Assembly (NCBI RefSeq): GCF_001936595.1
Contig: NZ_MLBG01000012.1
Coordinates: forward strand, 1-64,000
Reading direction: 5' to 3'
DNA length: 64,000 nucleotides
Source of the DNA: Desulfovibrio sp. DV
GTDB taxonomy: Bacteria; Desulfobacterota; Desulfovibrionia; Desulfovibrionales; Desulfovibrionaceae
The notes under the pieces were generated by a model that did no database searches, was not told the DNA's origin, and worked only from the letters and a program-made list of their open reading frames with translations. Every line of letters starts with the position of its first letter. The first letter of the stretch is position 1. The position numbers and the translations under genes were made by a program. Shown piece after piece: positions 19,983 through 37,705 of the stretch.

Positions 19983-20126
19983 GCCGCCGCCACAAGCCCG
20001 CGTCGGCGCAAAAGCCCGCCACCGGGCTGCAATAAAACGGCATTGCTCACAAAATACGAACGCCCTCTGTCAGGGGGCGGCCCTTGGCTGCGGCCGACGG
20101 TTTTGGGGCGAGAAAGCCGTTGACAA

Positions 20127-20144
20127 TGTCACCTGCCAGTGACA
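20127..20144. promoter_or_regulatory. Palindromic operator upstream of tetR (site 1)
   Basis: TGTCAC-CTGCCA-GTGACA is a perfect 6-bp inverted repeat with a 6-base spacer. It overlaps the start of a TTGACA (20120-20125) and lies 10 bases before the tetR start. The same half-sites and spacing recur at 20819-20834, so it is very likely the TetR binding site. Confidence 0.78.
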
Positions 20145-20154
20145 AAGAAGGGCC

Positions 20155-20793
20155 ATGGACACCAGCCACAGCCGCGCCGCCCGTGCGCCCAAGGACCGCG
20201 AAGCCACCAAACGCCGGCTTATTGCCGCTGTGGGCCGGGTGCTGGCCCGGCAGGGCTTTCGGGCGGTCGGGGTCAATACCGTGGCCCGGGAGGCCGGGGT
20301 GGATAAGGTGCTCATCTACCGGTATTTCGATGGATTGCCCGGGCTGGTGGCCGCTTTTTCCCGGGAGGGCGATTTCTGGCCCGATGTGGACGAACTGGCT
20401 GGCGGCGACAGGCAGGCCTTTTTGGCCCTGTCCTTCACCGAACGGATGGTGGCGGCGTCCCGGAACTATCTGCGCGCCATCCGGTCGCGGCCGTTGACCC
20501 AGGAAATTCTGTCCTGGCGGTTTCTCGAACACAATGAACTGACCGAGGCCCTGGATACCACCCGGGCCGAGGTAGGGCAGGATTTCCTGGAACTGGTCGC
20601 CACCGGCGTGGCCTTGCCGCCGGTGGACCTCACCGCATTCAGAGCCCTGATCGGTGCGGCCATCCACCATCTGGTCGTGCGGGAACTGCACGAACCAAAC
20701 TTTGCCGGCCTGCCTCTCGATAACCCGGCCAGCTGGGATCGCCTGGAGGCCATGATCGGCCGCATCATCCGGGGCGCGCTTGGCCCGGAGTAG
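20155..20793 (+). CDS. TetR/AcrR family transcriptional regulator
   Basis: The 212-aa protein has an N-terminal TetR HTH (about 16-62; FRAVGVNTVAREAGVDKVLI, YRYF) and a variable ligand-binding domain. GTCAC-N6-GTGAC palindromes lie immediately upstream of its own gene and between it and the next gene. I infer autorepression and control of the downstream outer-membrane-type protein, and perhaps of the exporter upstream. Inducer unknown. Confidence 0.9.
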   Translation: MDTSHSRAARAPKDREATKRRLIAAVGRVLARQGFRAVGVNTVAREAGVDKVLIYRYFDGLPGLVAAFSREGDFWPDVDELAGGDRQAFLALSFTERMVAASRNYLRAIRSRPLTQEILSWRFLEHNELTEALDTTRAEVGQDFLELVATGVALPPVDLTAFRALIGAAIHHLVVRELHEPNFAGLPLDNPASWDRLEAMIGRIIRGALGPE

Positions 20794-20818
20794 CCGCGGC
20801 CTTTTTTTGGGACTCAAT

Positions 20819-20834
20819 GTCACCGATGAGTGAC
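20819..20834. promoter_or_regulatory. Palindromic operator downstream of tetR (site 2)
   Basis: GTCAC-CGATGA-GTGAC repeats the half-sites and spacing of site 1 with a different spacer sequence. It lies 111 bases before the start of the outer-membrane-type gene. Confidence 0.75.
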
Positions 20835-20945
20835 TTTTTTACCGGCAGGGCCTCCGGCAGGGAGGCAAAACCTCGGGAAAAAGCGCCCGGGTCCGGGCGT
20901 ACAGCGCGAGCCGGCTGCAATCGGCGGATCACAAAGGAGTATCGT

Positions 20946-21947
20946 ATGCATCAGAGGAAGCGGAGCAACGCGTTGCCGGGCAAGGGCCGTCTGACCACAT
21001 TTGGGCCATGGTGCCTAGGCTTGGGCCTGCTTGCCCTGGCCTTGCTGTTGGCTGCCCTGGGCGAGGCCCGGGGGGATGATCGGGCCGGGGTGGCCCTGGA
21101 AGAGGATCTGGCCGCCATGGACGCGGCCAATCGTAAAAAAGGCGCGGAGCGCGGGCGCGGCCTGCGCGTCGAGGCCGGCGGCAGCTACACGGCCGCAGCC
21201 ACGGTGTCCGGGGCCACGGTTTCGGTGTGGCAGGAGGAGGGCCGGGTTGCCTACGACACCGGCACCCTCGCCCTGGATCTGGGCGGCACCACCGGGCAGT
21301 ACGATTTTTCCAAGGCCATCCGCCTGCCCTTTGGCGGCCGGGCTCCATTTGAAAACCTGACCCGCTTTGACGCCGGCGTCACCCTCAAGGGCGGGTTGTG
21401 GGGCGATGTGGCCGGCTTTGTCGGCTTGCGGGGCGATCTCGGCTTTGAAAAGCAGGCCGACAGCAGAGGCCTTGGCGGCACGGCCCTGGCCGGCATTGTC
21501 GTGCCCATGGGCAGCCAGTGGGCCGTGACCCTGGGCGGCGGCGCATCCGTGACCCCGGTGGATGTCCAGCCCGTGCCGGTGGTCGGGCTGCGCTACGAAC
21601 CGGCTTCCGTGCCCGGATTGACGGCCAATTTCGGCTTGCCGCGCACCGAGGTGGCCTGGCGGGGCGGGTCGTGGTGGACGCTTCGGGCCACCGGGGACAT
21701 CGAAAGCGGAACCTACAGGCTTGACGACGACAATCCGACGGTCCCGGGCGGCACGGTCAGCCTTTTTGCCGCCCGGCTCGGAGCCGGAGTCGACCTGGAG
21801 CCGGCTCCGGGGCTTTGCCTGGGGCTTGGGGCGTTTTACGCCCTGCCTGGGACCATGACCTTTTACCGGGAGAGCGGTTCGCGGCTCAAGCGCTATGGGG
21901 TTGGCGGCGCGCCGGGGGGAACGCTGCGGCTTCGCTACGAGTTCTAG
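20946..21947 (+). CDS. Predicted outer-membrane beta-barrel protein
   Basis: The 333-aa protein starts at ATG 20946, six bases after AAGGAG. A long basic N-region and hydrophobic segment (about 23-42) form a signal peptide ending near GEARG. The mature part is rich in alternating Gly/aromatic strands and ends LRLRYEF, with the terminal Phe typical of barrel proteins recognised by BamA. No named family recognised. The TetR palindrome upstream suggests inducible expression with the exporter or in response to the same ligand. It converges on cheC with a 6-base gap. Confidence 0.7.
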   Translation: MHQRKRSNALPGKGRLTTFGPWCLGLGLLALALLLAALGEARGDDRAGVALEEDLAAMDAANRKKGAERGRGLRVEAGGSYTAAATVSGATVSVWQEEGRVAYDTGTLALDLGGTTGQYDFSKAIRLPFGGRAPFENLTRFDAGVTLKGGLWGDVAGFVGLRGDLGFEKQADSRGLGGTALAGIVVPMGSQWAVTLGGGASVTPVDVQPVPVVGLRYEPASVPGLTANFGLPRTEVAWRGGSWWTLRATGDIESGTYRLDDDNPTVPGGTVSLFAARLGAGVDLEPAPGLCLGLGAFYALPGTMTFYRESGSRLKRYGVGGAPGGTLRLRYEF

Positions 21948-21953
21948 GGTGGG

Positions 21954-22544
21954 TCAGCCGGCAGCCAGGGCGTCGATGGAGGTGAGCAGGGAGTCAAAGG
22001 AGGTGAGGCTGAAGATGATGAGCACTTCGCCGTCGATGAGATGGTCCTTCATGCTGAACTGGGTGCTGGCCACCAGGATCATGCCGTCGCCCTGGCCGAT
22101 GATGGAGCTGATGTCGGCCTCCAGGTAGTCCGGCGGCGAATAGCGCAGGGGTTCGCCCAGGATGTTGGCAATGGACCCCATGACGCCGTTTAAGACGATG
22201 TTGCCCACCTCCTGGAGTGTGGCCGTGCGCATGGAGCCGTCCGCGCCGGGCATGGCTCCGTTGCCGAGCACCACGTTGATGAGCTTGGCAGCGGATTCCG
22301 GCGGAAAAATAAGCGCGCTTATGCCGGCGAATTCGCCGGTAAAGGCCAGCTGGACCGCTGAGAAGACCGAGTTGGGGCGGGTGGCGTAGAGCTTGGCCAA
22401 CTGGTCCGGAGCCAAGACCCGCAGGACCGGCACCTGGAGCTGGATGTGGGTGTTGACCATCTGGTTGAGCATGCCGGCGGCCCGACCGACGCCGATATTG
22501 ATCAGCTCCTGCAAGATGTCGAGCTGCAAGGAGGAAAGTGTCAT
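21954..22544 (-). CDS. cheC: CheC-family CheY-P phosphatase
   Basis: The 196-aa protein carries two CheC-type phosphatase helices, LQELINIGVGRAAGMLNQMV (about 10-29) and LQEVGNIVLNGVMGSIANIL (about 109-128), each with the E-x2-N pattern. These remove phosphate from CheY-like receivers. It is the last gene of a minus-strand operon after a hybrid kinase and a lone receiver, 23 bases from the latter. The receiver is therefore its probable substrate, outside the usual flagellar chemotaxis cluster. Confidence 0.88.
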   Translation of the reverse strand: MTLSSLQLDILQELINIGVGRAAGMLNQMVNTHIQLQVPVLRVLAPDQLAKLYATRPNSVFSAVQLAFTGEFAGISALIFPPESAAKLINVVLGNGAMPGADGSMRTATLQEVGNIVLNGVMGSIANILGEPLRYSPPDYLEADISSIIGQGDGMILVASTQFSMKDHLIDGEVLIIFSLTSFDSLLTSIDALAAG

Positions 22545-22567
22545 GGCGGTTGTGGGGGCGTGCCCGT

Positions 22568-22921
22568 CTAGAGCAGGGCGGCCAGGGTCTCGCGCAGGGC
22601 AGCCTGATCCACGGGTTTGTTGAGAAACTCCCTGGCCCCGAGTTCCATGCAGCGCGCCCGGGTGGTCTCCTGGATGTCGGCCGTGACCACGCAGACCTGG
22701 ATGTCGGGCAGTTCCCGGGACAGGACTTCCAGCACGGCCACGCCGCCGGGGTCGGGCATGTTGAGGTCAAGAAGCAGGGCGCGGGGGCGTTGTTCCCGGG
22801 CCAGACGCAGGCATTCCTCGCCGTCCTTGGCCTCGATGACGTCGAAGCCGGCTTCCGTGGCGGTCTTGGCGGCCTGAAATCGCTGGAACATGGAGTCGTC
22901 GGCAATAAGCAATACGGGCAT
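22568..22921 (-). CDS. Stand-alone CheY-like response regulator
   Basis: The 117-aa protein is one receiver domain with the acidic pair (ADDS), phospho-acceptor Asp in LLLDLNMPD, Thr in VVTAD and Lys in LNKPVD. ATG 22921 follows AGGAAA; longer in-frame starts lack this. No output domain, so it acts by protein interaction. It sits between an XRE-hybrid kinase and CheC, which probably phosphorylate and dephosphorylate it. Confidence 0.92.
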   Translation of the reverse strand: MPVLLIADDSMFQRFQAAKTATEAGFDVIEAKDGEECLRLAREQRPRALLLDLNMPDPGGVAVLEVLSRELPDIQVCVVTADIQETTRARCMELGAREFLNKPVDQAALRETLAALL

Positions 22922-22993
22922 GGCGGTTTTCCTGTGCCAGCAGCAGGGCTGGCGGAGCGTAATCTGTATTTGTCGCAAATGCGACTGGTGGCG

Positions 22994-25900
22994 TCAAGGT
23001 TGCCCGGCAGCAGCCAGCACGGCGTCAACGGCCTTTCGGAGCCGGGCGGCCAGATTGGCCGCCTGGGCAAAATCTTGTTGGTTGCCGGCCAGTTCAAGGG
23101 CGGCGGCCAGTCCCTGGCACTCGGCTGCGCCGATGGTGGCTGCCGCCGATTTCATGGTGTGGCCGTTAAGGGCCAGTCCGGCCATGTCCTGCTCGGCCAG
23201 GGCGCGGTCCACCGCATCCAGGCGTTTTTGCAATTCCTGCAAGGAAATAACCAGAATCGGGCCGAACATCGCCGTATCGATGCCGAGCCGGGCCAAGGCC
23301 CAGTCCGTGTCCAGCACGCCCACAGGGCCGGTGGCCGGGCCAGGGCACTGGGCCGGCGAGGCCGGCGGCACGACCGCTGCCGCCGGCCTCGCCGCTTGGC
23401 CCGCTGAATCCTGGGAGGTAAGCTGGTCGATGGTCGAAGCCAGCTCGTCGAGATTGATGGGCTTGCCGATGTAGGCGTTCATCCCGGCCGCGGTGCAGGC
23501 CTGGCGCACCTCCTGGGACACATGGGCGGTGACGGCCACAATGGGCACCTCGGGATCTGTGACCGGGGCATCGGGCCGGCCGCCGGCCCGGATCAGGCGG
23601 GCGGCGGTCAGGCCGTCCATGGACGGCATCTCGATATCCATCAGCACCAGATCGAAGCACGACTCGGCCAAGAGGGCCAGGGCCGCCTCACCAGAGGTGG
23701 CAACCACGGACTCGTGGCCGAGCTTGTTGAGATGGATGTTCATGAGCTTGATGTTGACCGGGTTGTCCTCGGCCAGAAGCACCCGCAGGCTGCGCCACCG
23801 GCCAGGCTGGCGGGATGGGTGGGCCGTAGCCGGCCGGCCAGGGACAAAGGGGACGGTCAGGGTGAAACAACTGCCCTTGCCCGGGGCCGAGGCCACGGTG
23901 ATGTTGCCTCCCATGAGCTGGGCCATTTCCCGGCTGATGGCCAGCCCGAGGCCGGTGCCGCCGTAGTGCCGGGCCGTGGAATTGTCGGCCTGGCGGAAGC
24001 TCTCGAAAATGGTGGCAAACAGGGCCGGCTCAATGCCGATGCCGGTATCGGCCACGGCAAAGTCCAGCCGGGGCGGCTGGCTGGCGTCCGGCGAGGCATG
24101 GCAAAGCCGCAGGGACACGCCGCCGGAGGCGGTGAACTTGACGGCGTTGCCGACCAGATTGACCAGGATCTGGCGGATCTTGCCGGGATCGCCGCGCACG
24201 GCGCGGGGCACGCCGGCAGTGATATCCAGATTGAGCCACAGGTTCTTGCTGCGGGCCGAGACGCCAAGCGTCTTGACGACCGAACGCGCCAGCTCGTGCA
24301 GATCGTAGTCCACCAACTCCAGTTGCATCTGGTGGGCCTCGATTTTGGAGAAATCCAGGATGTCGTTTAAAATGCCAAGCAGATGCTGGGCCGACTGCTG
24401 GACCGTTTCCATGTAGTCGCGCTGCTCCAAAGTGAGCGTGGTGCGAAGCGTCACGTCGGTCAGGCCCAGGATGGCGTTCATGGGCGTGCGGATTTCATGG
24501 CTCATGCTGGCCAGGAACCGGCTTTTGGCCTGATTGGCCCGGTCGGCTTCCTCCTTGGCCGCCTGCAGGGCCTGGAGGGTGCGTCGTCGCTCCACGCCAA
24601 GGGCCAGCTGTTCGGCCACGGACAGGAGCAGCTCGGCTTCCTTTTTGCCGTAACGGGCGGCATCGGAAAAGTGCATCACGGCCATGACCCCGAGCACCTC
24701 CTGGCGCACCCGGATGGGGACGCCAAGCCAGACCTCGGGGGTGCGGGTGCCGGGGCAGGTCAGGCCGGTCAGGCGCATCCCCCGCCGGGTTACGAGGAGG
24801 GGATGGGCTGTGCGCATGACTTCGATCTGCACACTCGTTTCCTTGAAGTCGCTGAAATTGTCCCGGGTCAGCGGGGTGAGCCGGTGGGCCAGACCGGTCA
24901 GGGGCGGCGGCTGCGGTTCCTCCTGGCTGTCAAAGAGCATATAGTCGAGGCAGTCGTTGTCCCGGTCGACCAGGGCAATGGAAAATTCATGCACGTCCAC
25001 AGCTTCGCCAAGGATGTTGCGGATGGCCGTAAACAGGCTGTCCATGTCCTCTTCCGTGGCCACGGCGCTGGAGACCCGGTAGAGGATGGAGGTGGTTTTT
25101 TCACTGTCGCGCAGTTCCTCCACAGCCAGTCTGGTCTCGGTCATATCCCGGGCATTTATGACCACGCAGCGCTGGTCGAGTCCTTCCTCGGACCAGGGGG
25201 AATAGTGGATGGAGAGATAGCGGCGGCCCAGGCCATCCAACTGCAGCCAGCGCTCGAACCGGACACTTTTGCCGCTTAAACACTCGGCCATCCGCGGGGC
25301 CATGACCTCGTCGAAGTAGGTTTGCCCGAGAAAAGCCGCGACATGGCGGCCGACGATGGCTTCCTGACTGAGGCCATAGGCCGCCACATAGGCGTCGTTG
25401 ACAAACAGATACCGGCCATCGCGGTCCACCAGGGCCACCAGATCCGACGAGGCGGCAATGATGCGGGCATAGCGGCGCAGATCATGCTCGGCGCTCTCCA
25501 GGGCCGAAGAATCCTGGACGAAATGCTCGTAATAGGCGACCTCGCCATCGGGGCCGGCCACCGCCCGGACATTGCGCCGGGTGGCCAGCAGCGTGCCGTC
25601 GCGCCGCCGCACCGAAGCCTCGAAGCGCAGCATCCGGCCCTTTTCGGCCAACTGGCGCATCATGTCGTCGCGCGTGGCCGGGTCGGCATAGAGCTGGCCG
25701 GAAATATCCTTGACCGTGCGGGCCAGTTGGGCTGGCGAATCATACCCGTACAGCCGGGCCAGGGCCATGTTGGCCTCGAGATAGCGGCCTTGGGGGGTGG
25801 TCAGGGCAATGCCCAGGGGGGCGTTGTCGAAAATTTCCTGGTAGCGGTGCTCCCGCTCGGCCAGTTCGGCTTTTTCCCGGCGCAGCCGTTCCATGGTCCG

Positions 25901-26569
25901 TTCCAGCCGGACCGTGCGCTCGCGGACCCGGCGATCAACCAGGGCAGCCTCGGCCCGCACCACCCGCTCCAGACGGTACGGTTCGGACACGTCGGCCAGC
26001 ACGCCGACACCCCACAGGCCCTCGCGGTTGTTGCCCACCAGCTCCACCATAAGCGACCCATGGCGCATCTCGCCATCGCGGCGGCAAAAGAGCACGCCCA
26101 GCGTCTGGCGGTCGCCCGGGCTGGTCAGGGCGCTCAGCGCGGCCGCCGTTGCCGCGGCCGCCTTGGGGAAGACCGCATCGAAAAAAGCCTGCAACGGTTC
26201 CTGGCGCGCTTTGCCGGAATAGCCCAGCAGCCGGCGCAGCGATCCGGCCACCCGCATCATCCCGCTCTCCGGCTGCCAGGCGAAAAACCCCTGCCGGGCG
26301 TGGGCCGCAGCCCAGTCTATGCCTGCCGCGTCAGGATCATCCCCCTCGTCGCGGCCAAACAGAAACAACACCGCCGGCTCCACCGCAAGCGCCCGGCAAA
26401 ATGCCTCGACCACTGCCAGGGACGGTGCGGCCGCCCCCCGCTCGATCTTGTTCAAATGCTCAAGGGAAACACCCGACTGCACGGCCAGTCCGGCCTGGGT
26501 CAGGCCGCACAAGCGCCGCAAATGCCGCAGCCTGCGGCCAAAAAGCAAGTTGAAGTCAATCCGGGCCAT
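22994..26569 (-). CDS. Cytoplasmic XRE-PAS-GAF hybrid histidine kinase with receiver and Hpt
   Basis: The 1191-aa protein carries, in order, an XRE/Cro HTH (about 5-60; [20 protein letters not shown]), three PAS-like domains (about 75-190, 250-360, 370-480), GAF (495-650), HisKA with phospho-acceptor His691 in SHEIRTPMN, HATPase (790-905), receiver (930-1050; LVLMDIEMP) and C-terminal Hpt (1095-1185; [11 protein letters not shown]). No transmembrane segment. ATG 26569 gives MARIDFN; an upstream GTG at 26614 overlaps a palindrome and has no ribosome site. A DNA-binding domain on a full phosphorelay kinase is unusual. It heads the kinase-receiver-cheC operon and may bind the 26611-26631 palindrome. 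Confidence 0.93.
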
Positions 26570-26610
26570 GTGTGTTCCCAATGAACGTGGAGTGTGGGGA
26601 TGCGATAAAA

Positions 26611-26631
26611 ACACGTAACAGCATTACGTGT
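26611..26631. promoter_or_regulatory. Perfect palindrome between the XRE-kinase and tupA genes
   Basis: ACACGTAA-CAGCA-TTACGTGT is an 8-bp perfect inverted repeat with a 5-base spacer, 41 bases upstream of the kinase ATG. Its size and position fit an operator of an XRE-type dimer, most simply the kinase's own N-terminal domain. A hairpin in the kinase leader is the alternative. Confidence 0.7.
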
Positions 26632-26699
26632 AAAGCCCCCGGAAGTAGAGGCGGGGCTTTGTTAGAAATGACATAAGAGCCTGATTCGAATTGATTTTC

Positions 26700-26729
26700 T
26701 TGACTTCAACCCACAAAGTGCTGTTATTT
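26700..26729 (+). promoter_or_regulatory. Sigma-70 promoter of the tupA-like gene
   Basis: TTGACT (26700-26705) and TTATTT (26724-26729) are spaced by 18 bases, 34 bases before the start codon. AAGGAG precedes ATG 26764. Confidence 0.6.
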
Positions 26730-26763
26730 TGAATCACGATTCCCCAAAAGAAGGAGACCCCCC

Positions 26764-27618
26764 ATGCGCACCAGCAGCAGCCTTCCGGCCCTGTGCCTGT
26801 GCCTGTGCCTGCTCGCCGTCACTGCACACGCCGGCCCCAAAGTCGAAGAGAGCTACGGTCCCGGCCCCAAAACCTTCACCCTGGCCACCGGAAGCCCCGG
26901 CGAACTCGGCCTCCTGCGCGTCCTCGGCGAAGCCTACTGCACCGCAAACCAATGCCGCCTCGACTGGATCAAAGCCGGCTCCGGCCAGTCCCTCGATATG
27001 CTCAAAAACGGCGAAACCGACATGATCATGGTCCACGCCCCGGCCGCCGAGAAAAAAGCCGTGGCCGAAGGCTGGGCCGGATGCTCAAGCCTCATCGGCT
27101 CCAATGAATTCTTCATCGTCGGACCGGCCAACGACCCCGCCGGCATCGCCAAAGCCGCCACCGCCGCCGACGCCTACCGGAAAATCGCCCAAGCCCAAGC
27201 CAAATTCTTCTCGCGCGGCGATAACTCCGGGACCCACAAAAAAGAAATGGATACCTGGAAAGACGCCGGCATCGAACCAAACGGCGACTGGTACATCGTC
27301 ACCAAAGCCTTCATGACCGCCACCCTCAAACGCGCCAACGACGAAGACGGCTACTTCATGACCGACAGCAGCACCTGGGCCGCCGAAAAAAACAATACCC
27401 CCAAACTCGCCATCCTGTTCTCCGGCGATAAAAAACTCGTCAATACCTACCACGCCCTGTGCGCCCAGAAAGACGGCAAGCCCGCCTCCGATCTGGCCGC
27501 AGGCTTCATCACTTTCGTCGCCTCCCCCAAAGGACAAACCATCATCAATACCTTCGGCAAAGAAACCCACGGCGAAGCCCTCTACAACGACGCCGCCTAC
27601 GCCAGGAAATACGAATAA
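26764..27618 (+). CDS. Tungstate-type ABC transporter substrate-binding protein (TupA-like)
   Basis: The 284-aa periplasmic protein has a signal peptide (about 1-23, ending AHA-GPK). It shows TupA-family blocks in order: FTLATGSPGELGLL in place of the usual TTTS stretch, TDMIMVHAPAAEKK, NEFFIVGPANDPAGI, FFSRGDNSGTHKKE and FITFVASPKGQ. The family binds tungstate, needed for formate dehydrogenases and aldehyde oxidoreductases in this group. No tupB or tupC lies beside it, so it must share a permease encoded elsewhere or have another role. Divergent from the XRE kinase; a hairpin repeat composite follows the stop. Confidence 0.82.
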   Translation: MRTSSSLPALCLCLCLLAVTAHAGPKVEESYGPGPKTFTLATGSPGELGLLRVLGEAYCTANQCRLDWIKAGSGQSLDMLKNGETDMIMVHAPAAEKKAVAEGWAGCSSLIGSNEFFIVGPANDPAGIAKAATAADAYRKIAQAQAKFFSRGDNSGTHKKEMDTWKDAGIEPNGDWYIVTKAFMTATLKRANDEDGYFMTDSSTWAAEKNNTPKLAILFSGDKKLVNTYHALCAQKDGKPASDLAAGFITFVASPKGQTIINTFGKETHGEALYNDAAYARKYE

Positions 27619-27620
27619 AG

Positions 27621-27805
27621 ACCGCCGGGACGCTCCCCCGGACCCTGCCGCCGGGACGCTGTCCCGGACCCTGCCGGGGCGCTGCCCCGGACCCTGCCAG
27701 GACGCTGTCCTGGACCTGCCGGGGGGGATCATCCCCCCCGGACCCCCTGGATGGGGGCGCATGGTGCGGACGGGGTAAGGGACCGGGAAGGGCGCGGAGG
27801 CGCGG
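27621..27805 (+). repeat. 3'-UTR hairpin repeat composite after the tupA-like gene
   Basis: Four short hairpins in tandem, each of the form CCGGGACGCTGTCCCGG with variable arms, run from 27621 to 27717. A GGGGGGGATCATCCCCCCC hairpin and a conserved tail follow. Positions 27718-27805 match 319-408 in inverted orientation almost exactly. Confidence 0.8.
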
Positions 27806-27960
27806 AAAGACAGTCAACGGCGGGATAGCCCGGGTGGACAAGGCTCCATTGAAAATCCGCTGGAATTTGGCAAAGCGCTGTGTCGTTTTGCCCTGGAAAA
27901 CCTGCAAGCGGGCAAGGCAGACCGGGGTTGGCCCACGCCTATCCGGTCGCTCTTTCTCCA
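27806..27960. other. Unassigned spacer between repeat blocks
   Basis: No credible gene. The stretch links the composite repeat to hairpins A and B. An ORF crossing it on the plus strand is a GC-rich shadow. Confidence 0.5.
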
Positions 27961-27963
27961 ACG

Positions 27964-28026
27964 AAATGCGGCCGAAGGATCTGGCACAAGGCTTTGCTTG
28001 CGCCAGATCCTTCGGCCGCTGGCGAG
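27964..28026. repeat. Long perfect hairpin A (right copy)
   Basis: An 18-bp perfect inverted repeat (27968-27985 with 28002-28019) contains a further CAAG/CTTG pairing around the loop GCTTTG. Flanks AAATGCG and CGCTGGCGAG equal those of the left copy (59-104, read on the minus strand), and the loop shares GGCTTTG. The stem arms are unrelated in sequence but both pair perfectly. Confidence 0.78.
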
Positions 28027-28028
28027 GT

Positions 28029-28099
28029 GGGTGTTGGAATTGGGGGCGATGTGTCTGGCGCGCCAGCGCCGGGCGCATCGGCCCCCAATTCCAACACCC
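28029..28099. repeat. Long perfect hairpin B (right copy)
   Basis: A 19-bp perfect inverted repeat (28029-28047 with 28081-28099) has inner CGATG/CATCG pairing and a central CTGGCGCGCCAG palindrome. The TTGGAATTGGGG arm resembles the left hairpin B arm. Confidence 0.78.
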
Positions 28100-28150
28100 A
28101 TTCTCTCACGCTCACGCGAACCGGCCTTGCCGCCACCCGCTTCCCCCATT

Positions 28151-28189
28151 CAGGGGTCCGGGGGGGTGACCCCCCGGCCGCCGGAGGCA
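28151..28189 (-). repeat. 3'-UTR hairpin repeat after the acidic repeat protein gene
   Basis: On the minus strand, after the stop codon and a purine-rich tract, TGCCTCCGGCGGCC leads into a C7/G7-type hairpin. This is the G-run variant of the family. Confidence 0.75.
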
Positions 28190-28253
28190 TCTTCTCTTCT
28201 CTTGTCTTCTTCTATCTCTTCACTTCTCTTTTCATCTCTTCTCTCAACGCAAC

Positions 28254-30281
28254 TTACCCTTCAAACTCCTGCAACAGGGCTGCGATCTCTTCGCGGATGA
28301 CGGCGGCTGCCGCTTTCGGCACGGTGCGTTCCATTTCGGCGGCCATCTCGGCGGTCAAGTCGCTGCGCAGCTTGTTGAGGGCGGCGTCGAGGTCGCCGGG
28401 TGTCAGGCGGGCGTCGAGTCCGTCCAGGGCTTTCTGGGCATCGGCTTTGGCCTGGGCGGCGGTTTCGGCGGCGTCTTTGAGGGCCTTGGGATCGGCGGCG
28501 TCGGCGAGCAGGCTGGCACGCAGTTTTTCGGCCAGTGCTTCGGGGTCGATGCGGTCGGTTTCCAGGGTTTCGATGCGCGAGCTCAGGGCTTCGCCCAGGC
28601 TTTCGATCTCGCCGCGGGCAGTTGTGGCGGCGGTCTGGAGTTGTGCCTCAAGGCTGGCGGTCAGGTCGTCGGCCAGGGTGGTGCGCAGTTTTTCGGCCAG
28701 CGTATCGGGGTCGATGCGGTCTGTTTCCAGGGCTTCGATGCGGCCGGCCAGGGTATCGAGGCCGTCGCTGGCGGTTTGCAGGCGTTCGGCCAGATCGTCG
28801 GCCAGGGTTTCGCGCAGGCTGTCCAGGGCTTCGGTGAGGCGTTTGGCGGTGACGAAATCATCGGGGTCCGGCAGTTCCCGGCGCACTTCGGCGATGCGGG
28901 TTTCCATGTTCTGGGCGAAGTCTTCGAACTGGATGTGTCGTCCCTGGGACAGGGCTTCCAGGCGGGTGACGGCTTCGCGCAGGCTGTCCAGGGCGCCGGT
29001 CACGTCGTCGTTGCGGGCCAGGTCGCTGGTGGCCGGCAGTTCGCTTCGCAGGGCGTCGAGGTGTTCGGCCAGGGTGGTGTGCAGTTCTTCGAGGATTCCG
29101 GCCTTGAGGTCGCCCAGGTCCGGGGCCGTGCTGTGGCTGGCGAGGAGGGTTTCCAGGCGCAGGGCCAGGGCTCCTTCGAGCCGGGCGGCCAGGGCCACGG
29201 CCAGGGTGTTCTCGTCCGGGACCTCGGGAATGGCGTCGAGGCGTTGGCCGAGGTCGGCGGTGGCGGCTTCCAGGGCGGCCAGGCGCAGGGCCAGGGCCTG
29301 GTCGGAGCCGGTCTGGGCCTCGGATTGGGCCTGGGGAGCCTTGGACGAGTCGATGAGGGTGTCGAGTGCCCCGAGGTCGATGCCGCCGACCGAGGGGCCG
29401 TTGTCGGCTCTGGCGGTGGCGGCGACGGCCATGGCGGCCAGCGGCACGGCTGCGGCGGCCATGGCTGCGGCCGGGATGCCGGCATCGTCTTGTGCTTCGG
29501 CGAGTTCGGGGGCGGCGGCAGCTTCTGCCATGTCTGCCCTATCGGGCAGGCCGACATCCGGGGAGTCGGGCAATGTGCCGAGCAGGTCGGGCATGGCTGT
29601 GTCGTTGGCGTCGGGTTCGGCCAGCAGGGCGTCGAGGTCGGCGTCGGACACGCCCGAGTCGGCGTCGTCATCGGTTTCGGTGAGGACGGCGGCGATGGCT
29701 TCGGGTGTTTGCTGCTCCGGGCTGTCCGGGGTGGCGTCGGATTTTTCTTCGAGGTCGCTGAAATCGAGGGCATCGAAGCTGTCGGCAGCGTCTTTGGCCT
29801 TGGGGGTGTCGTCGAGGCCCAGGTCATCGAAGCTGACGTCGGAAATATCCAGGGCGTCGTCGTCCGCAGCGGCGGGGGCGGCGGCCTTGGCGGGGGCGGC
29901 GGGCTTGTCGTCGTCGAAATCAAGCTCGCCCGGGCCGGCGCTGTCGGGTTCGTCGAGGCCAAGGCCCGTGAGGTCCATGATGTCGTCGTCGTCGGCAGCG
30001 CCCGCAGCGGCGGGTTTGGCGTCGTCGTCGGCCACTTCGAAGCCGGCCAGATCGAACAGGTCGTCGTCGGCCTCGGCATCGGCCGTGGCGGCCGGTGCAG
30101 CCGGTGCGGATTTGGCGGGCATGGGTTCGGCGTCGCCGAAGAGGTCGTCGAGTTCCTGTTCGAAGCTCATGTCGACGTCATTGTCGCCGGCCGTGCTTTT
30201 GGTGTCGGTTCCCTCTTCCACGAAGTCGGTGAGGTCGATGATGTCGTCGTCGGTGTCGGGAAGGGGTTTGTCGGTCGCCAT
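28254..30281 (-). CDS. Acidic repeat and coiled-coil protein of unknown function
   Basis: The 675-aa soluble protein has two parts. Residues 1-200 carry at least four short acidic linear motifs of the form DDD(I/L)xDL(T/A)xF, for example DDDIIDLTDF, DDDLFDLAGF and DDDIMDLTGLGL, spaced by Ala/Pro-rich linkers. Residues 300-660 are predicted coiled coil with repeated units such as LETDRIDPDTLAEKLRTTL and LETDRIDPEALAEKLRASL. No signal peptide. Recurrent short motifs on a long rod suggest a multivalent scaffold. It lies upstream of the cytochrome c3 gene in the opposite reading order, with no obvious functional link. Confidence 0.75.
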   Translation of the reverse strand: MATDKPLPDTDDDIIDLTDFVEEGTDTKSTAGDNDVDMSFEQELDDLFGDAEPMPAKSAPAAPAATADAEADDDLFDLAGFEVADDDAKPAAAGAADDDDIMDLTGLGLDEPDSAGPGELDFDDDKPAAPAKAAAPAAADDDALDISDVSFDDLGLDDTPKAKDAADSFDALDFSDLEEKSDATPDSPEQQTPEAIAAVLTETDDDADSGVSDADLDALLAEPDANDTAMPDLLGTLPDSPDVGLPDRADMAEAAAAPELAEAQDDAGIPAAAMAAAAVPLAAMAVAATARADNGPSVGGIDLGALDTLIDSSKAPQAQSEAQTGSDQALALRLAALEAATADLGQRLDAIPEVPDENTLAVALAARLEGALALRLETLLASHSTAPDLGDLKAGILEELHTTLAEHLDALRSELPATSDLARNDDVTGALDSLREAVTRLEALSQGRHIQFEDFAQNMETRIAEVRRELPDPDDFVTAKRLTEALDSLRETLADDLAERLQTASDGLDTLAGRIEALETDRIDPDTLAEKLRTTLADDLTASLEAQLQTAATTARGEIESLGEALSSRIETLETDRIDPEALAEKLRASLLADAADPKALKDAAETAAQAKADAQKALDGLDARLTPGDLDAALNKLRSDLTAEMAAEMERTVPKAAAAVIREEIAALLQEFEG

Positions 30282-30319
30282 GGGATACCTCGGCCGTTAG
30301 GCGTCAATGGGGGGCGCAA

Positions 30320-30342
30320 GGCCGGGGGATAGGCCCCCGGCC
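30320..30342 (-). terminator. Hairpin behind the cytochrome c3 gene
   Basis: GGCCGGGGG and CCCCCGGCC arms close a 5-base loop, 17 bases after the stop codon. No T-run, so termination efficiency is uncertain. Resembles the G-run variant of the 3'-UTR family. Confidence 0.55.
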
Positions 30343-30358
30343 TGCACCGTCGTGGAGT

Positions 30359-30748
30359 TTAGGCGCCTTCCTTCTTGGGATGGCATTCAGGGCACTTGGT
30401 GGGGCCCTTGGCTTCCTTCTTGTGGCAGCCGACGCAGCTCTTTTCGCTCTTCATGTCATGGAAGGCACGGTAGAACGATTTGTCGCTGGTCTTGTCCTTG
30501 GGATCGGTGCTGTCATGGCAGCCGGCCGAAGCGCACTTCTGCGAGGCTTCACCTTTGTGGTGGCAGACTTTGCAGTCGACCTTGGCGTGGCCTTTGTGGG
30601 AAAACTTCACCGGGGCCTGGGTGGCGGTCATGCCCTCGGGGGCCTTGACGATGCCATCAGCCGGAGCATCCACGGCCTGCACGACGGGCAGACCCACGAA
30701 GCCCACCAACGCTGCGCACATGACACACGATAACAACGCTTTTCTCAT
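30359..30748 (-). CDS. Periplasmic tetraheme cytochrome c3
   Basis: The 129-aa precursor has a signal peptide (about 1-25) and four heme sites: CKVCH, CASAGCH (CX4CH), CVGCH and CPECH. His residues near FSHKGH and FHDM can serve as sixth ligands. A CX2CH rather than CX4CH fourth site resembles the Desulfomicrobium norvegicum-type c3. It accepts electrons from periplasmic hydrogenase or formate dehydrogenase and passes them to membrane complexes. GGAGG is 8 bases before ATG 30748. Strong taxonomic marker for sulfate reducers. Confidence 0.95.
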   Translation of the reverse strand: MRKALLSCVMCAALVGFVGLPVVQAVDAPADGIVKAPEGMTATQAPVKFSHKGHAKVDCKVCHHKGEASQKCASAGCHDSTDPKDKTSDKSFYRAFHDMKSEKSCVGCHKKEAKGPTKCPECHPKKEGA

Positions 30749-30867
30749 CCCTCACACCTCCTTCCAAGAATAATTTTTCACTTAGAGGGTGTACGGCCAG
30801 CCCGGACAGCCTGTCAAGGTGTACCGTCCGGATAAGACGGTACATTCCGCCCTGTTGCAGTGGGAAA

Positions 30868-31611
30868 TCACTGCCCCAGGTCGTACTTGCCGGCATAGCC
30901 GCGCGGCGTCAGGATGCGGCCGGCGGCCATGCGGCTGGCGCTGTTGCCGACAATGACCAGGGTGAGCATGTCGGCCCAGGCGGGGTCGGCTTCGGCCAGC
31001 GGGGTGACGCGGATTTTCTGGTCCGGGCGAAAGGCGCTTTTGACCATGCCGACGGGTGTTTCGGGGCTGCGGTGGCGGGCGGCGCAGGCCAGGGCGGCGG
31101 GCAGGTGGCCGGTGCGCCGGCGCGAGCGCGGATTGTAGAGGGCAACGACGAAATCGGCGGCAAAGACGGCTTCCAGGCGTTGTTCGATGACCGGCCAGGG
31201 AGTGAGCAGGTCGGAGAGGCTTATGACGGCGAAATCGTGGGTGAGCGGCGCGCCGAGCAGGGCGGCTGCGGCGCACACGGCCGGGATGCCCGGCACCACG
31301 GTAAAGGTGACATGCCCGTCCAGGCCAAGGGCGGCCAGCATTTCCAGGGCCAGTCCGGCCATTCCGTAGACCCCGGCGTCGCCGCTGGAGACGAGCACCA
31401 CCCGGCGGCCTTCGGCGGCGGCTTCCAGGGCGGCGCGGCAGCGGGCCACTTCATGGGTCATGCCGGTGGCGGCCACGGTCTTGCCGGCCAGAAGCGGCGG
31501 CGGCACGAGTTGGATATAGGCGGTGTAGCCGACCACCATGTCGGCCTCCTGCAGGGCCGTCTGGGCCATGGGGGCCAGGAGGGAGGGGTCGCCGGGGCCA
31601 AGGCCCACCAC
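30868..31611 (-). CDS. cobJ: Precorrin-3B / cobalt-factor III C17-methyltransferase (CobJ/CbiH)
   Basis: The 247-aa SAM-dependent methyltransferase of the corrin ring-contraction step has VVGLGPGDPSLL at the N-terminus, VSSGDAGVYGMAG, VPGIPAVCAAAALLGAPLTHDF and ALYNPRS. The start is placed at GTG 31611 or 31608, just past the cbiG stop, because the conserved domain begins there; a longer frame reaches 31713 inside cbiG. The gene pair cbiG-cobJ is translationally coupled. Confidence 0.9.
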   Translation of the reverse strand: MVGLGPGDPSLLAPMAQTALQEADMVVGYTAYIQLVPPPLLAGKTVAATGMTHEVARCRAALEAAAEGRRVVLVSSGDAGVYGMAGLALEMLAALGLDGHVTFTVVPGIPAVCAAAALLGAPLTHDFAVISLSDLLTPWPVIEQRLEAVFAADFVVALYNPRSRRRTGHLPAALACAARHRSPETPVGMVKSAFRPDQKIRVTPLAEADPAWADMLTLVIVGNSASRMAAGRILTPRGYAGKYDLGQ

Positions 31612-31613
31612 GG

Positions 31614-32648
31614 TCAGCGCGCCAGGGCGATGGCTACCGTGGAAAAGCCGGTCCTTGTTTTCGGGGCCAGCAGTCTGCCTCCCCCCGTCGCCAGTATTGC
31701 CGCGGCCTCGCATACGCTGCCAACTCCCATGTGTTTGGCCACCACCGCCGAGGGGTGGGGCACGCTGACGCCGGCCAGTTGGCCGGCACTGAAAAATTGG
31801 ATGTCCAGGCCAAGGGTCCGGGCCGCTTCCAGGAGGCCGGCCTCATCGCGCTTGGCCTCGATGCTGGCCAGGGCGGCGAGGCTCCCCGGGGCCAGTCGGT
31901 GTTCCCGGCAGACGTGGTCGAGCAGGGACAGGATGTCGGCGGCCGGGGTTCCCCGGCGGCAGCCCACGCCGGCCGTCAGCACCCGGGGACGCAGGAACAG
32001 GCGCGTTGGCGTGGCCTCTCCGGTGCGCCAGTCCACAAGGACCAGGGGCGTATCCGGGGCAACCTGTTCCGGGGCGGCCACCCACTCGAAAGAGTTGAGC
32101 GTCCTGGCGTCTGGAACGGTAAAAAGGCCCAGGGGATCGAAGACGGCCACGGGCTGGCCGGCGGCCAGGGCGGCGTTGATCCGGCGGGTGGCCACGGGGT
32201 TGTCCAGGCCAAGGCCCAGGTCCCGGGCCAGCAGTTCGATGGCCGGAGCGCCGGCGGCATCGGTCGCCGTGGTGATGACCGGCACGGCCCCGGTCAGGTC
32301 GGCCACGCGCCGGGCCAGATCGTTGGCTCCGCCCAGATGGCCCGAGAGCAGGCTTATCGCGAAATGGCCCGTATCGTCCAGGCAGACGACGGCCGGATCG
32401 GATGTCTTGTCGCGGACATGGGGGGCGATGGAGCGTACGGCGATGCCGCAGGCGCAGATGAAGATGTGGGCGCGGTGCCGGGCAAAGGCCTCGGCCACAA
32501 GGGGCGCCAGCGCGGCAAACGGCCTGGCGTCCGGGACGGCCAGCCGGGCCAGGGCATAGAGCCGGGCCGGGAGGGCGGCGGCGAGCCTGCTGCCCAGGGC
32601 GGCCCCTTTTTCGGTGACGGCGTAAATGGCGATGTCGGGAGTGGTCAT
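31614..32648 (-). CDS. cbiG: Cobalt-precorrin-5A hydrolase CbiG
   Basis: The 344-aa enzyme opens the delta-lactone of cobalt-precorrin-5A in anaerobic cobalamin synthesis. Conserved stretches are ICACGIAVRSIAPH, LSGHLGGANDLAR and the C-terminal CbiG_C block GVGCRRGTPAADI with SVPHPSAVV. It precedes cobJ with the stop and start nearly touching. No cobalamin riboswitch is visible upstream (32649-32746). Confidence 0.94.
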   Translation of the reverse strand: MTTPDIAIYAVTEKGAALGSRLAAALPARLYALARLAVPDARPFAALAPLVAEAFARHRAHIFICACGIAVRSIAPHVRDKTSDPAVVCLDDTGHFAISLLSGHLGGANDLARRVADLTGAVPVITTATDAAGAPAIELLARDLGLGLDNPVATRRINAALAAGQPVAVFDPLGLFTVPDARTLNSFEWVAAPEQVAPDTPLVLVDWRTGEATPTRLFLRPRVLTAGVGCRRGTPAADILSLLDHVCREHRLAPGSLAALASIEAKRDEAGLLEAARTLGLDIQFFSAGQLAGVSVPHPSAVVAKHMGVGSVCEAAAILATGGGRLLAPKTRTGFSTVAIALAR

Positions 32649-32746
32649 GCGGAAAGCAGCATAGGCTATTTTCGCGTCGGACTAAAGAAGGGATCCCGGG
32701 CCGCCGATAAGCCTTGTGATACGGAGCGGACCGACAGGAGCAGGCC

Positions 32747-33178
32747 ATGATCGATGCGGTGGACAGCGGCGGCTACGGAGTACTTGGGCTGTATGCGGCC
32801 CAGGCTCCGGTCGTGCCCGAAGCGCCGCCAACGCCGCCGGCCAGCAGTCCTGCCGCCGAACCGGCCCGGGCCTCCCAGGGCGTGCAACCCATCCAGAACC
32901 AGGGCAGCGCCCCGGTTTCGCCGTCCGAGCCCGGTGCGGACGGATCGGCCACGTCCGGGCGCGATTTCGGGGACAGCGGCCAGGGGCTGGCCCGCCAGGC
33001 TGTCGTGCTGACCTCCCTGGCGGCTGCGGGAGCGACTTCGGGGGCGGCCGCCACCGGCTCGGCCACGGCCTCCGGGCCGGCAACCGGCCGGGCGCTTCGG
33101 GCCTATGACCGGGCCGGAGCCGCGACAACTGCCGGCGGCAGCGGCCGCACCGGCATCATGGTGGCCCGCCGGGCCTGA
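32747..33178 (+). CDS. Small Ala/Pro/Gly-rich hypothetical protein
   Basis: The 143-aa protein has a short conserved-looking N-terminus (GGYGVLGLYAAQ) and a low-complexity Ala/Ser/Pro/Thr body. AGGAG is 8 bases before ATG 32747, supporting translation. No signal peptide or membrane segment. Not recognised. Confidence 0.55.
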   Translation: MIDAVDSGGYGVLGLYAAQAPVVPEAPPTPPASSPAAEPARASQGVQPIQNQGSAPVSPSEPGADGSATSGRDFGDSGQGLARQAVVLTSLAAAGATSGAAATGSATASGPATGRALRAYDRAGAATTAGGSGRTGIMVARRA

Positions 33179-33227
33179 GGCCACAGCCCGCCTTTCCTTG
33201 CGCAGCTGTTGCGTCTCGACTTGGTCA

Positions 33228-33296
33228 CGCACCCGGCAACTCAAACTTCGCCCAGGTGGGATTCCAAAGGGCTCAGCCCTTTGGCCGCCGGAGGCA
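33228..33296 (-). repeat. 3'-UTR hairpin repeat after the J-domain gene
   Basis: On the minus strand it reads TGCCTCCGGCGGCC, then CCAAAGGG-CTGAG-CCCTTTGG (33264-33284), then AATCCCACCTGGG and the start of the AGTTTGA module. It lies 66 bases after the stop of the J-domain gene. Confidence 0.85.
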
Positions 33297-33361
33297 CTCT
33301 TTCTCTTCTCTCACTCCCCCGGCCGCCGGAGGCCTTGCCCCGATACACGAGTGAAAAAGGG

Positions 33362-34462
33362 CTAAACAGCCCAGGCAGTGGCGGTGCGTCGGCCGGCAGA
33401 GAAGCGCATGGCCAGTTCGTAGGCCACGTTGACGTCTTTCATGGCTTCTTCGTCGCCGCCGAGATCGGGGTGGTGGATCCGGGCCATGTGGCGGTAGGCG
33501 TTTTTGATCTCATCGACCGAGCAGGGATAATCCAGGCACAGGATATCGTAGGCGCACTTGAGATTCATGCCGTTTTTACGGGCCATTTCCCGGGCCCGGT
33601 ACTGCCGGTCGCGGTCCGGGCGAAACCCTTCGGCCGTGCGTTCGGGCCGGGGCCGGGCATGGGGCCGCGAGGCTCCGGCCGTCTGCTGGCCCGACTGCGC
33701 CGATGCCCGGCCGTTGCCGGCCGCTCCGGCGGTGTTCCCGGTCCGGCCAAAGGCTCCGGAAGCCTGGCCCGGTCCGGCCGTTGTTTTCGACTGCGTTCCG
33801 GCGCTGCCCCCGGCCGTGGCGCGGGACTGGGCTCCGGCGCTGCGCGAATCGGCTTCAGGGCCGGCCGTCCTGGCCCGGAAGGTCGCCTCCGGACGCGGGC
33901 GTTCCCGGTGGGTCCCGGTATGGCTGCTGTGGGCGCGGAAGGTGGATTGGCCGGGCCGGGCCGAGCCGGTGTGGCTGGCGCGGGCCTTGTCTTCGCCGGC
34001 AGCGGCCTGCCCGGCGCCGGGGCGCTGCTGGGCTCCGGCCGAGGCCTGGGCGCTGCCGGCCGAGCCCGGCCCGGCTGTCGGGCCTTTGGCTTCGGCGTGG
34101 GGACGGGCCTTGAAGCGGTTGCGTTCAAAGGCACCGGCCGCGGCCGACGGTCCGGCCGGTCCCTGGGCCTGGGTCCGGGAGGTCCGGTCCGAGGCGCCGG
34201 GCGGCGGCGTGGCCTGCTGGCTGCGAAAGCGGGTGTCGCGGGTGGTGGTGAAGCGGGAGCCGGCGGCCTCGGTCCGGCCGGCAGAGGCGGCGGAACCGTT
34301 TCGGGCCGTGCGCAGATTTTTGAGAACTTCCTGTAAATGAACGAGAATTTCCTGCAAGAGGACGCGGGTCCGGTTGAGCTGCACCTCCAGGGCCTGCCAG
34401 TCGGCTACGCCGCTGCCGGCCTTGGCCCCGTAAGCGCCTTGTCCCTGGGCGTGTCTAGGCAT
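33362..34462 (-). CDS. Protein with C-terminal J domain and disordered N-terminal region
   Basis: The 366-aa protein has an N-terminal helical segment (about 18-55; VQLNRTRVLLQEILVHLQEV), about 220 residues of Ala/Gly/Thr/Arg-rich low complexity, and a C-terminal J domain (about 300-360) with YDILCLDYPCSVDEIKNAYR and an intact HPD in IHHPDLGG. J domains stimulate Hsp70 ATPase. The usual bacterial DnaJ has its J domain at the N-terminus. Start uncertain: ATG 34462 is preferred, 34513 and 34519 possible. Confidence 0.8.
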   Translation of the reverse strand: MPRHAQGQGAYGAKAGSGVADWQALEVQLNRTRVLLQEILVHLQEVLKNLRTARNGSAASAGRTEAAGSRFTTTRDTRFRSQQATPPPGASDRTSRTQAQGPAGPSAAAGAFERNRFKARPHAEAKGPTAGPGSAGSAQASAGAQQRPGAGQAAAGEDKARASHTGSARPGQSTFRAHSSHTGTHRERPRPEATFRARTAGPEADSRSAGAQSRATAGGSAGTQSKTTAGPGQASGAFGRTGNTAGAAGNGRASAQSGQQTAGASRPHARPRPERTAEGFRPDRDRQYRAREMARKNGMNLKCAYDILCLDYPCSVDEIKNAYRHMARIHHPDLGGDEEAMKDVNVAYELAMRFSAGRRTATAWAV

Positions 34463-34745
34463 GGAAGGGTTCCCACGCGTCCCGACCATGGCCGAAGACA
34501 GGTCCGGGGGCATGGCCAAAGGCTATGCAATGCGCTGGTATTGCAGATTTTTTTCGTAACAAAACAACACCTTCCCTTACCATATCTACGCAATAGGCAC
34601 CGCTGTGGCAAGGCGAATTTCCGGCAGCGAAAGCCGGGCAAGCCCCCTAGTGACAGAGCCGCCGGTTTTGATGTACTGTGCAGCGCGATACGTTGATTCG
34701 TTGACACGCCCGCCGTCATATCAGGCAGGCAACCCGAGGACGCCC

Positions 34746-35213
34746 ATGAAACCGACCGATGCCGAAGTTGCCAAGCCCTTTGTCGATGCCACCAGGCATG
34801 TTTTGACCATGATGGCCCAACTCGACCCCAAACCGGGCAAACCTTATGTCAAAAAAGCGTCGGCCGCTGCCGGCGACGTTTCTGCCGTCGTTGGCCTGAC
34901 AGGCGACCGCAACGGCAGTATCTCTATCAGCTTCTCCAAGAAATGTGCCATTGCCGTGGTCAAGAACATGCTTGGCGACGATATTGCCGACATCATCCAG
35001 GATGCCAAAGACGCCGTGGGCGAAATCACCAACATGATTTCCGGGCAGGCCCGGGCAGGACTCAGCCAGCTTGGACTGAACCTGTCCTCGTCCACGCCCA
35101 CCGTCATTTTCGGCGACAACCACACCATCAGCCACATCACCTCCGGTCCTGTGGTGGCTATTCCGTTTTCCACCGAGTATGGGGATTTCACTCTGGAGTT
35201 TTGCTTCGAGTGA
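34746..35213 (+). CDS. CheX-type chemotaxis phosphatase
   Basis: The 155-aa protein is CheX-like, with VGLTGDRNGSISISF, ML-GDD and the phosphatase helix DAVGEITNMISGQARAGL (E-x2-N). ATG 34746 follows GAGGA. No chemotaxis genes adjoin it. CheX proteins dephosphorylate CheY and can replace CheZ; this gives the window two CheC/CheX-type phosphatases. Confidence 0.88.
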   Translation: MKPTDAEVAKPFVDATRHVLTMMAQLDPKPGKPYVKKASAAAGDVSAVVGLTGDRNGSISISFSKKCAIAVVKNMLGDDIADIIQDAKDAVGEITNMISGQARAGLSQLGLNLSSSTPTVIFGDNHTISHITSGPVVAIPFSTEYGDFTLEFCFE

Positions 35214-35278
35214 TCTGCCGCGCCACCAGCCGATCCCGGGGGCTTCGCCCGTCCGGAATCGCGCCAGGGACCGCCGCC

Positions 35279-37387: not shown

Positions 37388-37450
37388 CTCCTCTTTCCTT
37401 GCGCCTTTCCGACCCATGGCCGCTTGGAAGGCGGGCCTTGCCCGGCGCAT

Positions 37451-37476
37451 AAAAAAGGGAGTGCCTGGGCACTCCC
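37451..37476 (-). terminator. Rho-independent terminator (minus strand)
   Basis: GGGAGTGCC and GGCACTCCC arms are followed on the minus strand by six T. It lies 230 bases beyond the fmdB-like stop and also 64 bases beyond dsbD. Confidence 0.75.
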
Positions 37477-37534
37477 CTGAAGTTTTGGCCACCGCGCGTG
37501 AACTTTGGCGGCCACGGCCCACAGTCGACTTCTC

Positions 37535-37580
37535 CCGTTGGGGGGTCCGGGGGCCTCAGGCCCCCGGCCGCCGGAGCACT
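37535..37580 (-). repeat. 3'-UTR hairpin repeat after the fmdB-like gene
   Basis: On the minus strand, GTGCTCCGGCGGCC leads into CCGGGGGCC-TGA-GGCCCCCGG (37547-37567) and GACCCCCCAACGGG. G-run variant of the family. Confidence 0.8.
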
Positions 37581-37705
37581 CTTTCTCCCCCTCCCGGCCA
37601 CACGATGGACGCAACAAAGCCGCCCGCCGTATCGCCCCGTTTTCCAAAAAGAAAACGCGGTGACACGGCGCAGGCGGGAAATCTCAGGGGTCGCCGGCCG
37701 GGCGG

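Follow-up and report, generated by a model that had tools for sequence, protein, structure and literature searches.

What keeps the two arms of a long hairpin complementary when the middle of those arms differs from one copy to the next? The question is raised by a pair of hairpins in a 64,000-nucleotide stretch of Desulfovibrio sp. DV (contig NZ_MLBG01000012.1, positions 1 to 64,000; hereafter the window). The first-pass annotation had described two copies of a hairpin A in which common flanks and a common tip enclose a variable middle, and both are indeed present, at 47-111 and 27964-28026. Read in one direction, the hairpin follows the grammar AAATGCG, arm, (A)GGCTTTG, arm, CGCTGGCGAG; copy 1 lies on the minus strand, which corrects the earlier description. 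The arms had been called unrelated, and this is true of their middle, but the base GCG and the tip around GGCTTTG are common to both copies. A second supposed pair, 'hairpin B', does carry TTGGAAT near the base in both places, but its members are different: 204-277 is a hairpin B, upstream of A, and 28029-28099 is a hairpin C, directly downstream of A. The parts of the two copies and their neighboring genes, called by a codon-bias script trained on the window with no annotation used, are as follows:

1-46, minus strand: hairpin C of copy 1, partial (one arm and part of the tip; the contig begins inside it)
47-111, minus strand: hairpin A of copy 1 (arms 54-76/85-107, one C.C mismatch)
204-277, minus strand: hairpin B of copy 1 (24-bp perfect arms 204-227/254-277 enclosing a smaller hairpin)
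381-406, plus strand: short hairpin of the G-run/C-run family, adjoining copy 1
503-2107, minus strand: gene adjoining copy 1, 5'-nucleotidase family (PF02872 and PF00149)
26764-27618, plus strand: gene upstream of copy 2, PBP-like protein (PF12849)
27721-27746, minus strand: short G-run/C-run hairpin, array border on the side of the plus-strand gene
27964-28026, plus strand: hairpin A of copy 2 (arms 27968-27990/27997-28019, loop GCTTTG, one A.C mismatch)
28028-28100, plus strand: hairpin C of copy 2 (perfect 20-bp outer arms 28028-28047/28081-28100; inner part paired)
28153-28178, plus strand: short G-run/C-run hairpin, array border on the side of the minus-strand gene
28254-30281, minus strand: convergent gene of copy 2, 675 aa, without a Pfam match

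Copy 2 has no B. Across the window, arms of at least 20 bases with at least 96% complementarity were found only in both A hairpins and at 204-277 and 28028-28100, among the 25 listed of 27 inverted repeats within 120 bases. As had been noted, no transposase was seen beside the copies: of the three flanking genes tested, two carry other domains and the third has no Pfam match.

Two further repeats of the window deserve mention. The short hairpins at the array borders belong to a family GGGGTCCGGGGGG-n5-CCCCCCGG, whose arms and loop vary too and which gives eight matches in the window at no more than three mismatches, against 0.08 expected (hairpins at 381-406, 27721-27746, 28153-28178, 37542-37567, 48124-48153 and 49291-49321). 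A second intergenic hairpin repeat, CCAAAGGGACTGAGTCCCTTTGGAATCCCC and variants, lies at about 52432-52470, 59276-59310 and 59420-59455.

Anatomy and distribution of the B-A-C arrays

The element is a composite array of B, A and C, in that order, bordered by short G/C hairpins, and some copies have fewer than all three. Followed in the direction of A, the end of a gene leads into a purine-rich stretch, short hairpins such as GGGGGGATCATCCCCCC, and B; then come a spacer, A, C directly after A, a C-rich stretch, a short hairpin, and the end of the opposite gene. The arms measure mostly 22-27 bp in B, which enclose a smaller hairpin, mostly 22-25 bp in A, and 20-36 bp, often at least 30, in C, which has the base GGGGNCTGGAATTT and often the tip GGCGGCTTCCGCC. 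RNA folding of the 635-base gap at copy 2 gives -361.7 kcal/mol (z -10.2) on one strand and -343.9 (z -6.1) on the other, more stable than 20 of 20 shuffles on either strand. Rfam gave no match in the window at the gathering cut-off; below it, 27600-28260 matched 19 microRNA precursors and one sRNA, as expected of any long hairpin.

A search with the flanks only (AAATGCG N36-66 CGCTGGCGAG, pairing not demanded) located six places in the window's own genome, against none for a reversed control. All six are hairpins, and copies with non-pairing arms, the outcome that would have spoken against the original observation, numbered zero among them. A covariance model of A built from these six listed 21 matches in the same genome: seven full copies, one of them beyond the pattern search, with the other 14 being opposite-strand readings of the seven and seven weaker places. 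Six of the weaker places are shortened, keeping flanks and outer pairs while tip and inner pairs are gone, and the seventh is another hairpin.

We then consider 59 genomes searched with this model, including 14 of the window's genus, which its relatives indicate to be Solidesulfovibrio, a genus of sulfate reducers. Strong full-length A hairpins occur in six of the 14 (G000 and G005 to G009), that is, in five of the 13 besides the window's own, with 13 to 21 matches listed per genome when opposite-strand and weak ones are included; a single weak match came from each of G003, G010 and G012. Outside the genus, G018 gave two weak matches (one per strand, best E 2.9e-7) and G054 one (E 0.0013). The G018 hairpin, from another genus of the same family, has a different loop and a CGCTGGCG flank (L041, 1501-1569, 22 pairs) and is possibly a distant relative; strict confinement to the genus is not proved. 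In a scan of 84,980 species, one genome apiece, among which the window's genome is perhaps absent, the flank pattern returned 18 stretches, 15 of them in Solidesulfovibrio aerotolerans and S. magneticus UBA7700; the other three, in Microbulbifer, Bryobacter and Methylibium, were discarded by eye as lacking a hairpin. A phage origin was set aside on the count of zero pattern matches in viral contigs.

The flanks also occur around a short stem, AAATGCGGCGCTTCGCCGCTGGCG, which makes up 11 of 18 rows and is present in G001, G003, G004, G010 and G012; in this search, which gave no reward for pairing, 18 of 18 pair. The flank grammar is thus widespread across the genus, and six genomes have it in the long-A form. 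The model for C matched all 14 genus genomes, with 3 to 47 matches each (E no greater than 1e-4, opposite strands included), and gave weak matches in two of the 45 others; these counts are upper bounds, as the model also picks up other long hairpins. Near-identical paralogues exist among the copies. In assembling the set, 79 places were read, ten own-strand matches lying outside the 79; 15 without the loop motif (forms with a shortened tip or a different loop, one truncated where its contig stops, and weak or foreign matches) were excluded from the pair count, leaving 64. Most copies came from a model that rewards pairing, the exceptions being the flank pattern (6/6) and the short form (18/18).

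Draft contigs stop in or near the hairpins (start of the window; L016, L026), and G007 scaffolds have N at tips (L039, L053, L072); the arrays seem to break short-read assemblies. Other long hairpins were seen beside the family: in G009, stems of 27-33 perfect pairs that fall outside A, B and C or have another tip (L257 3487-3555, L258 7574-7634, L269 18846-18903), and in G004 a distinct family of long hairpins, GCGAGAGGGGAACCC-TTTTT..AAAAA-GGGTTCCCCTCTCGC (L273-L292; for example L280 4726-4768 and L285 14320-14361), whose arms also vary as pairs.

Arrays between convergent genes

Wherever both neighbors of a full copy were called, the genes are almost always head-on: 52 of 55 convergent, three unidirectional and none divergent, with one neighbor only in nine of 64. 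Counting all 79 places, weak ones included, gives 57/64 convergent, and merging by orthology gives 24 of 27 determined loci (30 loci in total; binomial P 3e-14 against 0.20 and 8e-10 against 0.31). The corresponding backgrounds are 20/98 and 22/104 convergent among gaps of at least 150 bases in 400-kb samples of G009 and G004, respectively, and 5/16 among gaps of at least 200 bases in the window. The samples of G009 and G004 (800 kb together) also hold 32 intergenic long hairpins irrespective of family, 17 of them in convergent gaps, with seven more inside or at the edges of calls, so the convergent trend is common to other long hairpins.

Two genes were traced across the genomes of the genus. 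The gene before copy 2 has an array, or part of one, and a head-on neighbor in the window's genome, G006, G008 and G012; in G003 an array or part is present and the contig ends there. The array is absent where the neighbor is co-directional (G005, G007, G011) and in G010, where the neighbor was uncalled; G002 and G013 end at this point. In G001 and G009 the neighbor is head-on, yet the array is absent. The second gene faces a head-on neighbor in all 11 genomes where one was called. It is accompanied by arrays in G005, G006, G007, G008 and G009 and by long hairpins of another sort in G003 and G001 (by eye), while G000 has one short hairpin only, G010 short ones and G011 nothing comparable. In G004 and G012 the head-on gap holds a classical two-way terminator, AAAAAGGGCAGG..CCTGCCCTTTT, instead of the array. 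A fixed polarity relative to the genes is ruled out, the element being reversed in G008 and G012.

Synteny shifts at the arrays, with the same gene meeting a different head-on partner by species (L165, L178 (G009), L194-L206). The gene beside G005:454134, for instance, has an array in five genomes, but its partner varies: G005 and G007 share one, G009 and G006 a second, and G008, where the array is reversed, has a third. The two genes beside G005:4406230 are adjacent and separated by an array in G005 and G008, adjacent with N between them in G007, and about 26 kb apart in G009. Exchange between copies would be the simple reading of these partner changes, and such exchange could also swap whole stems. 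At the locus in G008 orthologous to the window's, the A stem is lost, C is shortened at its tip, and one paired T-A to C-G change is seen; shortening of the tip with pairing kept is the outcome that would be expected of deletion within a DNA hairpin.

Paired change in the arms

That arms are replaced as matched pairs had been proposed from two copies, and it holds across the copies and at orthologous loci. For the alignment we took 60 matches from 59 chosen loci, leaving out weak, shortened and foreign ones, which yielded 57 distinct rows. Among these rows 99.4% of 1240 cells are paired, 281 cells are changed on both sides against five on one side, and 17 of 22 pairs show two-sided changes; the covariation score is 0.604, against 0.145 for shuffled and 0.012-0.086 for slid alignments. 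These values come from an alignment fitted to a pairing-leaning model in which related copies are counted repeatedly. Ungapped extension of the 64 loop-motif copies gave 1510 Watson-Crick pairs, 5 G-U, 8 A-C and 3 other. Unique hairpins (24 B, 53 A, 52 C, with the inner 12 pairs of C excluded) gave 2891 Watson-Crick, 11 G-U, 17 A-C and 10 other of 2929. The exception is the inner 12 pairs of C, with 39 G-U against 6 A-C; this excess fits selection at the RNA level there, although a few old changes may be its source instead.

Many copies are orthologous as judged by their flanking genes, which allows change to be followed locus by locus. The comparison covers 17 locus pairs; in 14 of them both flanks matched, and in three, where a contig ends, one did. 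Only hairpins in which 85% or more of the pairs form in the second genome were retained, a filter that favors pairing and kept 33 while dropping five at the B position. Hairpin A then shows 370 pairs unchanged, 10 double changes and 3 single; B shows 95, 4 and 3; and C shows 331, 35 and 24. Of the 35 doubles in C, 16 sit in two hairpins (5 and 11), whose entire stems may have been swapped; once these two are excluded, 323 pairs are left for C, of which 19 changed on both sides and 21 on one. The yardstick for template switching, two-arm against one-arm change, comes to 49 against 30 for all hairpins, 33 against 27 without those two, and 19 against 21 for C alone without them. Without the pairing filter, over 26 comparisons, A has 554 same, 15 double and 14 single; C has 530, 64 and 56, with 8 fitting neither; and B has 153, 29 and 50, with 28 fitting neither and many B lacking a counterpart. 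A count over 33 non-independent comparisons (736 same, 40 double, 13 single) was set aside as it stands because 17 of its 40 doubles come from two comparisons of G007 C143, which has a longer stem and is out of register; without these it reads 23 double and 13 single.

The spacers provide the yardstick for rate, diverging by 10.0% of 3840 bases in locally alignable stretches. A stems change less than this (13 of 383 pairs altered), which indicates that A is under constraint. Two-sided change affects 35/390 pairs in C (9.0%), or 19/323 (5.9%) without the two possible swaps, and 2.6% in A, so that C pairs change between half as fast and almost as fast as spacer bases, and A pairs more slowly. 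By our estimate, independence at 10% per site would give about 1% of pairs changed on both sides, only part of them pairing. Transversions account for 29 of the 49 double changes and for 176 of 385 spacer changes; for rRNA, one study puts the transition type at 61% of instantaneous compensatory changes (PMC8794818). The lack of a G-U surplus outside the C tips and the many transversion doubles favor a DNA-level or two-strand cause of the matched arms. The two sides need not change simultaneously, as single changes occur and one hairpin, G009 C1:296831, includes a half-way pair, with one arm matching G007 and the other G005.

Candidate roles and known systems

The convergent setting points to transcription, as does the locus in G002, where the position of A, ahead of GGCGAG and C, is occupied by AAAAATGGCCCCGCTTCGGGGCCATTTTT (AAAAATGG..CCATTTTT), a two-way terminator in form; together these make a two-way transcription boundary the likeliest role. 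We give about an even chance to the full reading, drawn from sequence and setting, in which the arrays serve as two-way transcription boundaries whose arms are kept complementary by template-switch correction, by two-strand selection, or by both. Under this reading, B-A-C would act between convergent genes such that transcripts entering from either gene fold identical hairpins, which would terminate both mRNAs or shield their 3' ends. The arms would stay complementary because replication switches template inside the quasi-palindrome and transfers a change from one arm to the other, because the hairpin has to fold on both RNA strands, or for both reasons; in the second case G-U would not be tolerated, since a G-U on one strand is an A-C on the other. 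The rate of change in C and the transversions favor the template-switch route. Both options of the first-pass annotation, selection for structure and a templated process, remain compatible with the data.

Two-way terminators are hairpins common to two convergent genes. Strong hairpins lacking a U-tract between convergent genes are what a terminator of the I-shaped or two-way kind consists of, and the arrays have that make-up. The classical intrinsic form, a stem followed immediately by a U-tract, does not fit the window copies, which lack the tract, in keeping with the earlier remark that no T-run follows them; a scan of 20001-40000 flagged only A of copy 2 on the minus strand, with a weak tail GCATTTCGTT, and left C of copy 2 unflagged. 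Classical one-sided terminators were also seen in the window by eye, at 37455-37478 and about 59567-59600. According to PMC12403871, transcripts of high-GC bacteria often end at hairpins without a U-tract, and the I-shaped terminators it describes resemble the arrays as gene-end hairpins of this kind. The arrays differ from I-shaped and two-way terminators in having several giant hairpins, in forming one dispersed composite family, and in their fixed unpaired sequences.

Matched arms could also arise through selection alone for RNA hairpins on both transcripts, each pair change being two independent mutations, an account that we regard as possible but doubtful. It gains from the convergent setting, in which both strands are probably transcribed and two-strand selection would likewise forbid G-U, from the slow change of the A stems, and from the one-arm changes counted above. 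The two-sided rates in C, not far below that of the spacers, weigh against it, as two steps by way of a harmful intermediate should be much slower. On balance unlikely is the view that these are selfish palindromes of the REP/BIME or MITE kind, dispersing and persisting where they do least harm, between convergent genes. The arrays are dispersed intergenic palindromes with several copies per genome, near-identical paralogues and an arrangement of units, and REPs share these arrays of units and lie in convergent gaps (PMC3733652, PMC1525189). REPs, however, also occur between unidirectional genes, where 3 of 55 arrays lie, and have frequent GT pairs in their stems (PMC3733652), of which no surplus is found here outside the C tips; REP/BIME units measure 20-40 bp and carry GTAG or CGTC at one end, whereas the arms here have 20-36 variable pairs with fixed tip and flanks. 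The hairpin ends have no conserved GTAG/CGTC tag: the conserved flanks are AAATGCG and CGCTGGCGAG, and CGTC occurs only in the GCGTCC subfamily, at the base of the stem. A Y1/RAYT transposase, which goes with GTAG REPs, was rejected as the driver, as PF01797 occurs in eight of the 14 genomes and fails to track the element; the copy-rich G007 (89% complete) has none and the likewise copy-rich G000 one broken piece. Nor did any of three loci examined offer a clean empty site with a target duplication, which, with terminal repeats and a matching transposase, marks a MITE. Finally, a role at the DNA level, as a cruciform or a gyrase/topoisomerase site absorbing supercoils between convergent genes, fits the setting and the near-perfect symmetry of the DNA, but the arm middles share no sequence; we consider it improbable.

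The arrays are real, widespread in the genus and no listed family, REP/BIME arrays and two-way terminators being nearest, and the covariation of their arms is unusually clear. Literature searches, whose coverage took in few subscription papers, returned no published account of them. The closest parallels for the upkeep of the arms are studies of template switching, proposed for rRNA helices (PMC8794818) and studied at quasipalindromes in E. coli (PMC7202029), which likewise involve concerted two-arm changes that preserve pairing. The RNA helices there have 2-10 pairs, and the bacterial cases are quasipalindromes of E. coli; the stems here have 20-36 pairs and belong to a dispersed family. Template-switch concerted evolution has also been proposed for long perfect inverted repeats in the mitochondrial coding sequences of Nematomorpha (PMC6649704); those palindromes lie within animal mitochondrial genes, whereas the present ones form a dispersed bacterial family.

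Returning to the two-way boundary, its most far-reaching version, which we hold to be rather improbable in full, would make the arrays two-way insulators of gene ends, a class spread over the whole chromosome, with arm middles that have no fixed sequence and are rewritten pairwise by template-switch correction. If true, they would be DNA elements defined by structure only, with C stems that change at half to nearly full spacer speed and yet stay paired. The set of copies itself bears on the old question of whether stems keep their pairing in two steps by way of G-U or in one template-switch step: with dozens of stems of 20-36 pairs in related genomes, many of them orthologous, the rate and path of two-arm change become measurable in a bacterium. 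The arrays would also reveal how high-GC bacteria of this kind separate head-on genes.
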